Positions 3,500 to 9,165 of a stretch of DNA of 10,501 nucleotides are shown here, in pieces. Position 1 is the stretch's first letter; every line of letters begins with the position of its first letter. This DNA is from Planctomycetaceae bacterium (GTDB lineage Bacteria; Planctomycetota; Planctomycetia; Pirellulales; Thermoguttaceae): NCBI GenBank assembly GCA_031283825.1, contig JAITAZ010000644.1, positions 1 to 10,501 of the forward strand. Direction: 5' to 3'. The translations under genes were made by a program, and so were the position numbers. Under the pieces are notes generated by a model. The model saw nothing but the letters and a program-made list of their open reading frames with translations. It did no database searches and was not told the DNA's origin.

Positions 3500-4645
3500 A
3501 TGGCAAAAAAGAGTAAGAAGGAGTCAGTTGTTTCATTACAGAATTATACCGCTTTTATTGAAAGTATAAAAGAGCGTATTCGTAATGTTCAAATTAAAGC
3601 GGCAGTTTCTGTCAACCGCGAGTTAATTTTTCTCTACTGGGATATAGCAGAAAAAATTGTAGCCGCTCAAAAAGACGCGTCATGGGGTGATAACTTTCTT
3701 GAAAATTTGAGTAATGATTTGCTAGAAGAATTTCCCGATATACGCGGATTCTCTTTTCGTAATTTACGTTCTGTTCGGCAGTGGTATCTTTATTGGACAA
3801 ATTCTCCAGATGCAAAAAAACTTATTAAAAATTTAGAAGGTTCTGCAACTTTGCCGAAAGTTGGTTCTAAATTAGAATTGTTAAAGTTGCCGTCAAAGAA
3901 TCATAAAAATAGTGTCTGCTTGCCTGAAATTTTTGGACGGATTCCTTGGCGGCATCATGTGGAAATTGTTACCAAATGTAAAGACAAGTCGGAGGCTCTT
4001 TTTTATATTCGGAAAACGCTTGAGAACAATTGGTCTCGTTCTGTTTTGTTGTATCAAGTTGAGAGCGATCTTTATAATCGTGCGGGCAAGGCGATTACGA
4101 ATTTTGATTTGGTATTGCCGGCGACTCAATCGGATTTGGCTCGTGATATTATAAAGGATCCTTATAATTTTGATTTCTTAACTATTCGTGAAAAATTTGA
4201 CGAGCGCGAGCTTGAAAATGATCTTATTGACAAGTTGACGCAATTTCTGTTAGAGTTAGGACAAGGTTTTGCATTTGTGGGGCGGCAAGTGAAAATCACG
4301 GTGGGCGATGAAGATTTTTATCCTGATTTATTGTTTTATCATACTCGTCTTCATTGTTATGTTGTAATTGAGTTAAAGACGATTAAGTTCAAACCTGAAT
4401 TTACGGGCAAACTTAATTTCTACGTTTCGGCGATTGACGGAATTTTCAAAAGCGAAGAGGACAAACCGACTATTGGTATTTTAATTTGCAGAGAAAAAAA
4501 TAAGACAATTGTAGAATATGCGTTGAAGGATATGTCTCAACCGATTGGAATTAGCAGTTATGAAATTTCGCGCGTGTTGCCGGAGAGTTTTAAGTCGTCT
4601 TTACCGACGATTGAGGATATTGAGATGGAACTAAAGCATATTTAA
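3500..4645 (+). CDS. PD-(D/E)XK nuclease of the DUF1016/YhcG family
   Basis: A predicted DNA nuclease with the two-part YhcG architecture. The N-terminal DUF1016_N region (about 13-180) contains the family-typical SVNRELIFLYWDIAEKI (37-53), then GFSFRNLRSVRQWY (83-96) and IPWRHHVEIVTK (148-159). The C-terminal PD-(D/E)XK fold (about 225-381) has YPDLLFYH (274-281), with D276 as the probable catalytic acid, and ELK at 291-293 supplying E291 and K293. The nuclease core therefore looks intact, and 381 residues is near the family norm. The start ATG has an AGG ribosome site 10 bases upstream. Family members are often near type I restriction-modification or mobile genes, but none is seen here. The cellular substrate is unproven. 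The gene sits directly behind the tandem repeat array, which may act in its control. It could have arrived by horizontal transfer. Confidence 0.9.
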   Translation: MAKKSKKESVVSLQNYTAFIESIKERIRNVQIKAAVSVNRELIFLYWDIAEKIVAAQKDASWGDNFLENLSNDLLEEFPDIRGFSFRNLRSVRQWYLYWTNSPDAKKLIKNLEGSATLPKVGSKLELLKLPSKNHKNSVCLPEIFGRIPWRHHVEIVTKCKDKSEALFYIRKTLENNWSRSVLLYQVESDLYNRAGKAITNFDLVLPATQSDLARDIIKDPYNFDFLTIREKFDERELENDLIDKLTQFLLELGQGFAFVGRQVKITVGDEDFYPDLLFYHTRLHCYVVIELKTIKFKPEFTGKLNFYVSAIDGIFKSEEDKPTIGILICREKNKTIVEYALKDMSQPIGISSYEISRVLPESFKSSLPTIEDIEMELKHI

Positions 4646-4710
4646 TTTATGTTCGCGCGAGATTTTTTTCGCGAGAAAATTTCAGCGGATTATTGAAAAA
4701 AATCAATTGA

Positions 4711-4716
4711 AAGGAG
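4711..4716 (+). promoter_or_regulatory. Ribosome binding site that decides the start of the next gene
   Basis: AAGGAG lies 11 bases before the ATG at 4728. An in-frame TTG at 4707 would start upstream of and read through this Shine-Dalgarno sequence, so 4728 is the better start. Confidence 0.7.
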
Positions 4717-4727
4717 TTTATAAAATT

Positions 4728-5447
4728 ATGAGTACAAATAATCAAAAGAATCGAGATTTATCGGCGAGACCGAAGTTGACGTTGCGTCAGATACTCAAGA
4801 TATCTGTTTATATTTTTTTGGGTTTGTTTTTGATTTTGTTTTTGATTTTTTATTTGCTTTATCTTTCGGCGCAGCGGGAGCCGGAATTTTATCGAGAGGC
4901 AAAGAGCGTTCCGTTGGAGGTGCAACAGACTCGCAATGCGGCGGTTGTTGATAAGATTAGGACATTGAATAACGATTTTCAAAGTCGGAGTAAAAAGTGG
5001 TCGGGAACGTTTACGGCGGAAGAAATAAATGCGTATCTTGCAGTTGAGACAACGAAATCTGGGGCGAATTTATTGCCGTCTGATTTGCAGGAACCGCGTA
5101 TTGTTTTTTTATCTGGTTCGGTTGGAATTGCGTGTAGAGTTCGTCAACGTGGATTATCGGCGGTATTGAATTTATCGTTGGGCGCGTCGATGCCGGAGCC
5201 GAATAAGTTAGTTTTTAGAATGCGTTCTTCTCAAGCTGGAGCATTACCTTTATCGAAAGATTATATTGTACAGACTATCTCCAACGTATTAAAAAGTAAA
5301 TGGGGCAACGTAACGCAAGGAACAGAAGGCGGAGACCCGACTTTTACAATTCAATTAAATATAAAAAACAGCGCCGGTCGAAAAGTAAGAGTAGAAAATT
5401 TTGCAATACAATCGGGCGTCATTCAATTTTCAGGAACAACAGAATAA
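4728..5447 (+). CDS. Single-pass membrane-anchored protein of unknown function
   Basis: A 239-residue protein with a short basic cytoplasmic N-terminus (MSTNNQKNRDLSARPKLT), one strongly hydrophobic helix at about 24-46, and a soluble, probably periplasmic domain of about 190 residues. The motif WSGTFTAEEINAYLA (86-100) is followed by alternating hydrophobic segments such as PRIVFLSGSVGIACRV and LSAVLNLSLGAS, suggesting a beta-rich sandwich. The layout (one helix, then T-A-E-E-I-N, then beta strands) recalls YpmS/DUF2140-like proteins, but the resemblance is weak and I do not assign the family. The gene lies 82 bases after the nuclease on the same strand, so it could be co-transcribed; the strong Shine-Dalgarno would also serve it alone. 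Its stop faces the nested repeat element. Confidence 0.8.
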   Translation: MSTNNQKNRDLSARPKLTLRQILKISVYIFLGLFLILFLIFYLLYLSAQREPEFYREAKSVPLEVQQTRNAAVVDKIRTLNNDFQSRSKKWSGTFTAEEINAYLAVETTKSGANLLPSDLQEPRIVFLSGSVGIACRVRQRGLSAVLNLSLGASMPEPNKLVFRMRSSQAGALPLSKDYIVQTISNVLKSKWGNVTQGTEGGDPTFTIQLNIKNSAGRKVRVENFAIQSGVIQFSGTTE

Positions 5448-5579
5448 GTTTGTCGCAAAGTTATTGTAACAATTCAGTAGGCAACCATTGATCTAGGGCT
5501 TTGTTAGTCTTAAATTGTGGGATGCATTTTTTATGAAAGACTGTATTTGTTACCGTTTTTGAATGGCTAAACCAAAAGT

Positions 5580-5599
5580 GTAACCATTCACGGTTTTTT
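5580..5599 (+). repeat. GTAACC-family repeat copy
   Basis: GTAACCATTCACGGTTTTTT is identical to the copy at 249-268. Upstream, CCG and GAATGG (5560-5565) can pair with CCATTC (5584-5589) and CGG to form a longer hairpin ending in the T-run. It lies about 130 bases after the stop at 5447 and could terminate that transcript weakly. The stretch 5448-5579 has no gene. Confidence 0.7.
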
Positions 5600-5621
5600 A
5601 AAAAACATATTATTTTTTTGG

Positions 5622-5879
5622 GTAACCGTTCACATTCAAAAGAAAAAATCCTACGCCCTGAAAGGGCAATCAGCAATAGCGTAGGGCAACGCCCTACGTT
5701 AGTATTCCACGACAACCAAAGCCCTGAAAGGGCGACAGCAAATTTCAATTTTACAAAGCGGCTTGCGCCCTTTCAGGGCTTGTTTTTCTAGGCAATTTCT
5801 ACGTAGGGCGTTGCCCTACGCTATAGCTAGACGCCCTTTCAGGGCTTATGAAATTTTTCTCTTGTGCGTGAACGGTTAC
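5622..5879. repeat. Nested mirror-symmetric inverted-repeat element between convergent genes
   Basis: The ends are GTAACCGTTCAC (5622-5633) and its reverse complement (5868-5879). Inside, the 13-mer GCCCTGAAAGGGC lies at 5655-5667 and 5721-5733, and its reverse complement at 5767-5779 and 5833-5845. A 20-bp near-palindrome built on GTAGGGC/GCCCTAC lies at 5679-5698, inverted at 5802-5821. Gaps are 11 and 22 bases on the left, and 22 and 11 on the right. Every internal pair is centred exactly on 5750. No open frame is present. It may serve as a bidirectional terminator or be a MITE/REP-like non-autonomous element. Confidence 0.9.
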
Positions 5880-5900: not shown

Positions 5901-8003
5901 CTACTTTTTTGTATTCAATAACATCGACGCATTCAATACCACAAGTATCGAACCGGCATTGTGAACTAACGCGCCTACAACGGGTCCAATAAATCCTCCC
6001 GTTGCAAGAATAATCGCTACCGCGTTTATACTCATCGAAATCCAAATGTTACTCACAATCTTTGATTGCGTCATTCTCGCAAGCCTCAGTAAAAACGGTA
6101 ACTTTGATAAATCATCGCCAACCAAAACGACATCTGCGGCGTCAATTGTTAAATCACTGCCAATCTTGCCCATCGCAATTCCTACCGTCGCAGCTTTCAA
6201 CGCCGGCGCGTCGTTTATTCCATCGCCAATCATCGCAATTTTATCGCCCCTGCTCGCTATCAATTCAATTTCCTTAACCTTCTCCTCCGGCAATAATTCT
6301 GACTTTACTAACTCAATTCCCGCCAACTCCGAAATTCCTCTCGCCGACCTTGCATTGTCGCCCGTCAATAATACTACATCCACGCCGCCGCGCCGCAAAC
6401 TCTCAACCACGCTGCGTGAAACTTGACGAATCGTGTCCGAAACCGATACAAATCCAATCGCCTCATCATCAACCACAACCCAAATAACCGTCTCTCCAAC
6501 ATCAAACCGTAATTCTGCACGCAATTTAATCTCGTCATTTATCGTAACGTTAAATCTCGATACAATTCGATCATTTCCCACAATCAACCGCTCGTCGCCG
6601 CCCGCTAACTTCGCACAAATCCCCTCGCCGCGAAATAACTCGAAACTGTCAACAGAATTCAACTGCAACCCCGCAGAGTTCGCCGCGCCAACTATACACC
6701 TCGCTAACGGATGCTCCGATAATAACTCAACCGACGCCGCAAGACGAAGTAAATCATCCGCGTCAATATTCGCGTCATTCGAATAAACTTCCCTCAACTG
6801 CGGCTCGCCCCGCGTCAACGTACCCGTCTTGTCAAACGCAACCACTCTCACCTGTGCAAGCCGCTCAATCGCCTCGCCGCTACGAATCAAAATCCCAAAA
6901 CGCGACGCATTGCCTATCGCCGCAATTATCGCCGTAGGAGTCGCCAACACCAACGAACACGGACAAAATACAACCAATATCGTTACCGCTCGACTCACCG
7001 ACCCCTCAATCAACGCCTGAATCGCAAATTCCGAATCCACAAAAAATATTCCAATCAAAAAATTCATCAGCCCAACAACCATCGCCGTAACTATCGCCAT
7101 CGGAACCAAAAAAGACGCCCACCTGTCCGCAATCCGCTCAATATGAGCCTTCCTCTGCTCCGCCTCCTGAATAAGACGAATCATATTCGAAATCGATGCG
7201 TCCTCGCCCACCCGCGTCGCCCGCATCACAAACGAACCAAAACAATTCACCGTTCCGCCATAAACCGAATCGCCCTCAAAAAGATCAACCGGCAACGATT
7301 CGCCCGTAATCAACGACTGATCAATAGACGTATTTCCCGTTACAATAATTCCATCAACCGGAACAGACTCGCCGGGCAACACCCGCAATAAATCGCCGCT
7401 GCAAACCTCCGACGCAGGAATTATCGACTCCGAATTATTCGTACTAATATTATCATTATCAATATTATTACCGCTGACGCTCTCAATTCGTCTTGCGGTT
7501 TTTGGCGCGAGTTTTAACAACGCCTCGATTCCGGCTTTCGCTCTAGTAATAGTCCACTCTTCCAGATAATGACCTAACGCCATGATAAACGCCACTTCAC
7601 CGCCCGCAAAAATATAAGAATGAACATGTCCGCCCGAATTGTCGCCGGAAGGAAAGAACCAATCCGAAATAATAGTCGCCGTAATCGCCGTACTCAAAAG
7701 CGTGTCAACAGAAACGCGGCGATCACAGATTAAATTCCTAATCGCATTGATAAAAAACGGCGAACCGGAAATCACTATCGCAAACCACGCCGGATCGAAA
7801 AATAAAAATTCATGCGCTAAATGAAAAAAACTCATCACAAGCGATAGCCCCGAAATTATAAGCAGAAAGACCTCTAACCGCTCGTAAATTTCATGCAACC
7901 TCGCCGAGATTTTATTAGAATCTTTTCGTTCCTCGCGCCGACTCCGCACGCTACAACAACACGGCGGAGCAACTTCTTTTTCACAATTACAATTTGTCTG
8001 CAT
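5901..8003 (-). CDS. Heavy-metal-transporting P1B-type ATPase
   Basis: A membrane pump that uses ATP to move a soft metal ion, probably outward. Numbering from the ATG at 8003 (700 residues): TGES of the actuator domain at 233-236, the transmembrane metal-site motif CPC at 347-349 (CPCSLVLATP), the phosphorylation loop DKTGTLT at 391-397, SEHPLA at 429-434 in the nucleotide domain, and GDGINDAP at 593-600. All catalytic motifs are intact. The N-terminus lacks a GMTCxxC-type HMA domain and instead has a short cysteine cluster (CNC, then PPCCCS). An Asn/Ser/Asp-rich insert lies at about 175-198 before the actuator domain. The last helices have SINAVAII and VHNAGSILVVLNA, lacking the Lys/Asp pair of ZntA-type Zn/Cd pumps and the usual Cu-pump signature, so the substrate is uncertain. 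A GTG at 8024 is an alternative start. There is no clear Shine-Dalgarno for either. Confidence 0.95.
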   Translation of the reverse strand: MQTNCNCEKEVAPPCCCSVRSRREERKDSNKISARLHEIYERLEVFLLIISGLSLVMSFFHLAHEFLFFDPAWFAIVISGSPFFINAIRNLICDRRVSVDTLLSTAITATIISDWFFPSGDNSGGHVHSYIFAGGEVAFIMALGHYLEEWTITRAKAGIEALLKLAPKTARRIESVSGNNIDNDNISTNNSESIIPASEVCSGDLLRVLPGESVPVDGIIVTGNTSIDQSLITGESLPVDLFEGDSVYGGTVNCFGSFVMRATRVGEDASISNMIRLIQEAEQRKAHIERIADRWASFLVPMAIVTAMVVGLMNFLIGIFFVDSEFAIQALIEGSVSRAVTILVVFCPCSLVLATPTAIIAAIGNASRFGILIRSGEAIERLAQVRVVAFDKTGTLTRGEPQLREVYSNDANIDADDLLRLAASVELLSEHPLARCIVGAANSAGLQLNSVDSFELFRGEGICAKLAGGDERLIVGNDRIVSRFNVTINDEIKLRAELRFDVGETVIWVVVDDEAIGFVSVSDTIRQVSRSVVESLRRGGVDVVLLTGDNARSARGISELAGIELVKSELLPEEKVKEIELIASRGDKIAMIGDGINDAPALKAATVGIAMGKIGSDLTIDAADVVLVGDDLSKLPFLLRLARMTQSKIVSNIWISMSINAVAIILATGGFIGPVVGALVHNAGSILVVLNASMLLNTKK

Positions 8004-8104
8004 GATATTGTAAACTGCCCGCACTTTAAATTTTGGTTATCGACGCCGATTTTTTTATGAATAACATTTATGTCGCCGAAATTCATTGTGCGAGTCATAT
8101 AAAT
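8004..8104 (-). promoter_or_regulatory. Leader of the metal ATPase, homologous to the lipoprotein leader
   Basis: This leader aligns with 9866-9990, upstream of the lipoprotein gene. Both have the 12-mer GCCGAAATTCAT (8075-8086 and 9958-9969, plus-strand reading), then a GAATA block, an AT-run, GGTTA, an AAATTT-like block and TAAACTG just before the ATG codons at 8003 and 9865. The lipoprotein copy has roughly 20 extra bases in the middle. Because similarity runs to the start codon, these are probably transcribed leaders, possibly with a shared promoter. Confidence 0.6.
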
Positions 8105-8948: not shown

Positions 8949-9021
8949 CGAAATTTATTTCAATGATATTTTGTAACCGTTCACAGGTTTTTAAATTCGG
9001 ATTTGAATTACTAAACCCAAT

Positions 9022-9097
9022 GTAGAGACGCAATGCTTTGCGTCTCTATCTGTGATCTTTTGATCGAACAATGAGACGCAAGGCATTGCGTCTCTAC
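9022..9097. repeat. Paired GAGACGCAA hairpins, inverted
   Basis: TAGAGACGCAA (9023-9033) pairs with TTGCGTCTCTA (9038-9048). GAGACGCAA (9073-9081) pairs with TTGCGTCTC (9086-9094). In addition GTAGAGACGCAATGC (9022-9036) is the perfect reverse complement of 9083-9097. GTAGAGACGC-type palindromes are, to my knowledge, common dispersed repeats in several phyla, including cyanobacteria. Confidence 0.85.
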
Positions 9098-9144
9098 TTT
9101 TGTTAATTTGTAACTATTCACGTTTGAATTTTTCGATAAAAAAT

Positions 9145-9165
9145 AAAAAAACCGTGAACGGTTAC
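9145..9165 (-). terminator. Mini intrinsic terminator of the lipoprotein gene
   Basis: On the minus strand, four bases after the stop codon, the repeat motif reads GTAACCGTTCACGG followed by seven T residues. AACCG pairs with CGGTT around a TTCA loop, with the T-run directly after and a second T-run further on. The 5-bp stem is short, but position and form fit a rho-independent terminator. The motif is a copy of the GTAACC repeat family. Confidence 0.55.

Follow-up and report, generated by a model that had tools for sequence, protein, structure and literature searches.

A planctomycete repeat with mirrored hairpin trios as a probable gene-less Y1 transposon core within IS66-type ends

The enzymes of the IS200/IS605 insertion sequences and of the repetitive extragenic palindromes (REPs) read folded single strands, and the tetranucleotide on the 5' side of the stem directs cutting (PMC8266576). 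Among the related TnpA-Y1 proteins, subclass 1.2 is marked by the motif Y---Q--HH; in the survey of Quentin et al. 2018 (PMC6006769), this subclass has a "no" in the REP column, is described as lacking, in general, the typical terminal structures of IS200, and is placed mostly in cyanobacteria and Bacteroidetes. An unrelated family, IS66, is reported to generate 8-bp duplications (PMC6778807), and a relative with a single open reading frame has the end GTAACTGCTCAGCA (PMC12898284). Here we analyze a repeat at positions 5622-5879 of a 10,501-nt stretch of DNA, the window, from a Planctomycetaceae bacterium (GCA_031283825.1, contig JAITAZ010000644.1). The window is contig 564 of an assembly of 3.46 Mb in 689 contigs, estimated as 73% complete. 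We hold with good confidence that the repeat comprises two mobile layers: a gene-less Y1 (HUH) core with three-hairpin ends, lodged inside an IS66-type miniature element.

The core and its gene-bearing relatives

A preliminary description, made from the sequence of the window, had proposed a symmetric unit of six modules; rereading the modules directly recovers them at the same positions, with the core centred on 5750. The core (5655-5845) has the layout A-12-B-22-A / A'-22-B'-12-A' and lies between GTAACCGTTCAC (5622) and GTGAACGGTTAC (5868). Its left trio, on the plus strand, consists of a distal short hairpin A (5655-5667) with a 5-bp stem and the loop GAA, a 12-nt spacer (5668-5679) whose 3' end TAG is the foot of the long hairpin, the long hairpin B (5680-5698) with an 8-bp stem and a 3-nt loop, and a proximal short hairpin A (5721-5733). 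The 33-bp centre (5734-5766), to which no strand is assigned, leads to the right trio on the minus strand, with the proximal A' (5767-5779), the long hairpin B' (5802-5820), a 12-nt spacer (5821-5832) reading ...TAG toward B', and the distal A' (5833-5845). When folded as single-stranded DNA, the unit reaches -90.4 kcal/mol, whereas shuffled sequences average -31.1 (z -16). Counting B as a 19-mer gives gaps of 12-22-33-22-12, and counting it as a 20-mer gives 11-22-33-22-11. Only the spacers of about 12 and about 22 are conserved, whereas the central gap varies among copies (28 in L015, L023 and L025 of the same genome, 13 in L072 and 52 in L070); hence, the 11/22/33 arithmetic is probably a coincidence.

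One gene-bearing relative is L083, a locus from a genome of the same genus (a congener), which has the order A-11-B-22-A, Y1 transposase gene, A'-22-B'-12-A'. The gene occupies the site of the 33-bp centre, and the inner A hairpins are separated by 468 bp in L083 versus 33 bp in the window. The window core corresponds to the L083 layout minus the gene. A further locus, L096, retains the L083 order with altered outer hairpins (GGGCTGAAAGCCC), and two others (L095 and L101) show parts of it. The earlier remark that no transposase was in sight thus holds within the window, but congeners have a Y1 gene between the two halves.

The L083-type protein scores as a member of the IS200/IS605 family in NCBIfam and is related by sequence to the IS608 transposase. 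Outside the IS200-type clade, 59 of 60 rows of our tree show Y---Q--HH, a motif that is partly built into the sample since some of the distant named loci were recruited via the exact word ETQEEHHK. By this motif, the transposase of the gene-bearing relatives would be of the TnpA-Y1 subclass 1.2 type.

Trios of hairpins in the order short-long-short, in mirror image on the two sides of the gene, recur beside some homologues of this protein with 33-74% identity, from Planctomycetota and Bacteroidota. The hairpin sequences of these distant trios differ, with GGCGCGGAGCGCC and CCCCCGGCAGCTTCGCTGCCGGGGG in L164 being unlike GCCCCAAAGGGGC and CCAGGGGCGGAAGCCCCTGG in L197, while the spacers are similar, TAG is common before the long hairpin, and the polarity of the loops is fixed. 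A search with the L083 protein in a named genome collection provided 14 loci, including representatives of Planctomycetaceae, Prevotellaceae, Alistipes, other Bacteroidales and Akkermansiaceae. Within the phylum, homologues are found in 85 of 392 genomes by an E-value cut rather than by the motif, and 30 phylum loci were examined. With a trio detector whose limits were set after inspecting these loci, 27 of 60 flanks of the phylum loci are positive (13/30 upstream, 14/30 downstream; both in 8/30), with controls of 2/1200 for shuffled and 0/226 for distant stretches. The 14 named loci yield 11 of 25 positive flanks (6/12 upstream, 5/13 downstream; both in 4), with controls of 0/500 shuffled and 0/94 distant, and 25 loci of the genus yield 7 of 48 (3/24 upstream, 4/24 downstream; both in 3), with controls of 0/960 shuffled and 1/152 distant. 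The gaps within the trios are 11-12 in 28 of 45 cases and 22-23 in 23 of 45. A Persicobacter plasmid locus (49% identity), examined once the limits were fixed, is positive on both flanks; the Bernardetia plasmid homologue L201 has the trio on neither flank, and six loci that we label IS200-type, on the basis of annotation and the tree, have it on 0 of 12.

Two local features recur in the trios. The neighbourhoods of 45 genes contain 99 hairpins whose stems measure 7 bp or more; TAG precedes 41 of them and CAG 9, the TAG background being 1.07% of trinucleotides; six tandem copies in L157 alone enter this count. Among 43 trio rows, which include both L083 and L156, each of the two short-hairpin positions has a loop of the form G-N-A, in the direction of the gene, in 33 rows and T-N-C in 0. 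In the tree, trio-positive rows are scattered and some branches are without any, such that the label does not mark one clear clade; the trio clade count of the tree omits unlabelled rows and is hence no test of clade status.

Other observations concern the same genes. The Prevotellaceae and Bacteroidales proteins of L157 and L158 are 73-74% identical to the planctomycete protein and have tandemly multiplied hairpin units upstream; this likeness suggests a transfer between phyla. Termite guts are presumably the source of Planctomycetaceae isolates such as Cd354_bin63 (L156). The single Y1 gene found in the window's own genome (L081) belongs to a second type (MSYVQLLYH...), as do those of L085 and L087. 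By eye, this second type sits between other short-long-short hairpins (GCCCCGCAGGGGC, CCGTAGG...CCTACGG), which the detector missed.

Copies, carriers and alternative origins

At the DNA level, searching the own genome gave at least 121 matches, drawn from the best 40 of 499 first-look candidates. The exact A motif GCCCTGAAAGGGC occurs 74+59 times versus 0+0 for its control, and GTAACCGTTCAC with at most one mismatch occurs 612+642 times versus 8+4 for the reversed pattern. We compared 39 further places in this genome (L010-L048), which were chosen for their likeness to the window element and whose proportions are therefore no census. By a motif rule, all six core modules stand in order at six of these (L010-L015), where T is degraded in some and the right-hand T is missing from L011; at L016 the first B is the sole missing module. 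The remaining places are partial, with three-A forms, T-A-33-A'-T' forms of ~127 bp and T-A-T' forms of ~80 bp, or degraded. The preliminary description had named randomly spaced copies as the refuting outcome; the copies compared do not show this, but belong to a single series of complete and partial forms, some of them degraded. In these copies the distances are kept while the spacer sequence varies, as that description had supposed, and its comparison to REPIN elements and miniature inverted-repeat transposable elements (MITEs) is sound: as a repeat, the element is REPIN/MITE-like.

Collapse through recombination between A hairpins is the most likely origin of the shorter A-only forms. The opposite direction, growth by additions to a single-A element, is a minority possibility within the two-layer reading: consistent with it, the T...T' gaps in 302 kb of own-genome sequence include no T-arm element that is free of A. 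However, the partial forms mostly start and stop at A hairpins, and 12 single-A elements (a count that omits L122, scored once per orientation by the script) have the loop GAA in five and TTC in seven, the pattern predicted if a collapse can leave either of the two outer A hairpins.

The preliminary description had treated the terminal motif as part of the same element; the GTAACCGTTCAC ends instead belong to a second layer and are inverted repeats of the IS66 type. These are T (5622-5633, plus strand) and T' (5868-5879, minus strand). Their centre lies at 5750.5 and that of the core at 5750.0. A further outer T motif, GTAACCATTCAC (5580-5591, plus strand), opens a stretch of ~42 bp (5579-5621) that precedes the unit in many copies. 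Perfect 8-bp duplications are present at 10 of 213 T...T' pairs as against 0.38 by shuffling, the 213 being all T...T' combinations within 400 bp, some of which are not true pairs. A modules lie inside two of the ten (L029 and L035), and duplications with one mismatch are found at four further A-bearing pairs (L024, L025, L033 and L042). T adjoins IS66 transposase genes in two congeners, G013 (L146, a 432-aa frame) and G008 (L155, with an internal stop), with one end seen in each, and the sister end GTAACTATTCAG occurs on both sides of the IS66 gene in L145. The IS66 transposase domain PF03050 is detected in 10 of 21 congeners. The outer layer, from 5580 or 5622 to 5879, would thus be an IS66-type miniature element carrying the core, and would account for the present spread in the own genome. 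As a separate observation, positions 1200-2388 of L145, with GTAACTATTCAG and CTGAATAGTTAC on both sides of the IS66 match, make up a candidate complete short IS66-type element.

These data raise the alternative that the unit is a plain IS66-type MITE with a palindromic interior, whose likeness to the ends of Y1 elements is incidental. The T ends and the duplications at other copies fit this, as does the proximity of all 25 A-type hairpins to a T (≤300 bp) in 302,077 bp of whole own-genome contigs, half of which were chosen for size or known matches (2 of 2 in 20 contigs taken by number). We regard it as very improbable, since the core flanks Y1 genes at the same spacing and is found free of T elsewhere. 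With a 308-bp query, matches were obtained in 16 of 40 genomes, of which 15 are among the 21 of the genus, the own genome being counted, and one is from another family. Among the matches listed, those of nine congeners (G004, G006, G007, G014 and G016-G020) are confined to query positions 65-267, which span the core but not T. Of the 21 congeners, 14 have between 18 and 475 A-type hairpins (GCCCTNNNAGGGC), and the other seven have at most 3. T is abundant in a different set of genomes, with 1254 in the own genome and 1395 in G017, as opposed to 72 (control 41) in the hairpin-richest G018; because the T-rich and hairpin-rich genomes differ, the core and T vary independently. Congener cores instead occur between repeats other than T (L059-L063, L065, L069-L071; L064, L066-L068, L072, L073; L074, L075). 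Inverted repeats of the form ACACTTTAAA[AT]TTCG flank them on both sides at 7 of 19 loci and on one side at 2 of 19; by eye, GTAATATATCAGTGGAAT repeats surround the cores at other G018 loci and in G014, and those of G017 lie between GTAACTATTCAG-like ends.

To assess the stems, 71 half-units were extracted by sequence similarity, from congeners as well as the own genome, and aligned. With the hairpins supplied as a named structure, 95.7% of the cells of 18 pairs can pair, and both sides have changed at 7 of the 18, in 30 cells. None of 500 shuffles reaches these values, further pair types being matched by 5 of 500, and slid alignments reach seven pairs once, with a maximum of 10 cells. The covariation proposed as a check is thus found as compensatory changes in the stems. 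The same halves bear on another explanation of the mirror order, namely the inversion-duplication of an A-B-A half. Indeed, the halves are inverted copies, 84% complementary across 57 nt in the window. However, left and right halves are ~80% identical, other copies and congeners keep the same distinction between the two sides, with both types recurring, and mirrored trios surround the gene at distant loci too. A recent event is therefore set aside, the retention of left and right types across copies being what two old ends would produce, and even with an ancient event included we give this explanation hardly any weight. Equally slight is the prospect of an RNA-level role as a two-way terminator or mRNA stabilizer, for which the position between convergent genes (4707-5447, plus; a P-type ATPase at 5901-8024, minus) and the strong fold, computed as DNA, might speak, but no Rfam family reaches its gathering score in the window, and the mirrored order around transposase genes and the loop polarity fit a mobile element better.

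The window has other features of note. A scan for tRNAs found none in it. A gene for a DUF1016/YhcG nuclease of the PDDEXK fold (PF06250, PF17761) lies near the element at 3500-4645. Further T motifs occur at 249-260, and a T-bounded stretch at 8973-9165 with a palindrome of the GAGACGCAATGC... type represents another repeat family with the same ends. Several contigs of the assembly (e.g. C54 and C365) start or stop in or near T or A modules, and these repeats probably broke the assembly.

Proposed mobility and its weight

Under the two-layer reading, the inner layer (5655-5845) would be a transposase-less derivative of a TnpA-Y1 subclass 1.2-type element, each end being a trio of a short hairpin, ~12 nt ending in TAG, a long hairpin, ~22 nt and a second short hairpin. 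By analogy to IS200/IS605 and REP, such an end may fold when single-stranded; the transposase would then read stem, loop and foot on one strand, with TAG and the loop as likely strand marks, and would cut and rejoin at the trio. An enzyme of this kind might also act in trans on gene-less copies. The central position of the core in a hairpin-like carrier would fit insertion at the tip of a hairpin.

Several results weigh against this reading. The gene-bearing A/B element and an IS66 transposase (PF03050) were both sought in the window's own assembly, 73% complete, and not found; the window copy itself is without an 8-bp duplication, with 3 mismatches for the T at 5622 and 8 for that at 5580. 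In the genus, A/B modules are lacking at most of the 25 Y1 loci. The Y1 domain PF01797 is detected in 14 of 21 congeners: among those with 18 or more hairpins it is present in 11 of 14, and among those with 0 to 3 in 3 of 7. Its match is absent from three hairpin-bearing congeners, G004 (164), G007 (353) and G008 (18); whether a genome has a Y1 gene at all thus predicts the hairpins weakly. Overall, most homologue flanks are trio-negative by the detector, with its limits set after inspection of these loci, the trio being absent or altered beside many. Some positives are doubtful, namely L180 and L196 on the downstream side, and L157 and L158, where the hairpins form tandem arrays, and L156 matches the L083 query at 100%, whereby the two represent one element. 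Finally, RNAalifold on the half-units returned three unrelated pairs only and did not find the hairpins unaided.

Our confidence is held back in particular because most flanks are negative and Y1 presence predicts the hairpins weakly. The same holds for the general proposal, which we favor by a slight degree, that many subclass 1.2 Y1 transposases of Planctomycetota and Bacteroidota serve single-strand transposons with tripartite ends, whose gene-less cores were repeatedly captured by unrelated double-strand MITEs, thus combining two modes of spread. An HUH subclass that had no known DNA partner would thereby gain a likely substrate, one in which the geometry is kept across phyla as the sequence changes. 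It would also explain an abundant repeat as a chimera of single-strand and double-strand mobile elements, and such a chimera would offer a route for a gene-less element to go on spreading after the loss of its own transposase.

Comparison with described systems

No earlier report of tripartite ends, or follow-up on subclass 1.2, was recognized in the open-access literature, mostly at the level of titles and the starts of abstracts. What appears new here are the tripartite ends beside a transposase subclass listed without REP and the capture of the core by unrelated carriers. An IS200/IS605 insertion sequence, which also has guide tetranucleotides, has one subterminal hairpin per end, unlike the three per end seen here. 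With the REP/REPIN systems and their TnpA-REP (RAYT) enzymes of subclasses 2.x, the element shares mirrored hairpins in high copy and related ones beside a Y1 gene, and B resembles the Stenotrophomonas maltophilia REP in shape, with its 8-bp stem, 3-nt loop and foot directly 5' (PMC8266576). It differs in that the class 2 REP/REPINs have one hairpin per side rather than three at fixed spacing, in its foot, which is TAG after a variable base (AATAG in the window) instead of GT[AG]G, and in its protein, which is of subclass 1.2. The IS66 family, ISBst12-like elements and their MITEs share the ends GTAAC..TTCA and make the 8-bp duplications that are seen here at some copies (PMC6778807, PMC12898284); unlike them, the present element carries the core of another transposon class, and its window copy is without the duplication.

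The remaining comparisons are with classes described in PMC6006769. TnpA-Y1 class 3 has in common several atypical flanking hairpins, a possible high copy number and a presence in Planctomycetes, and differs in its foot CnGA and its motif Y----Q. Subclass 1.2 itself has in common Y---Q--HH, DH[IV]H, a length of ~150 aa and few copies per genome. It is called mostly cyanobacterial and of Bacteroidetes there, in contrast to the 85 of 392 phylum genomes with homologues recovered here by the E-value cut, and it is listed without REP, whereas many of the genes found here are flanked by hairpin trios.
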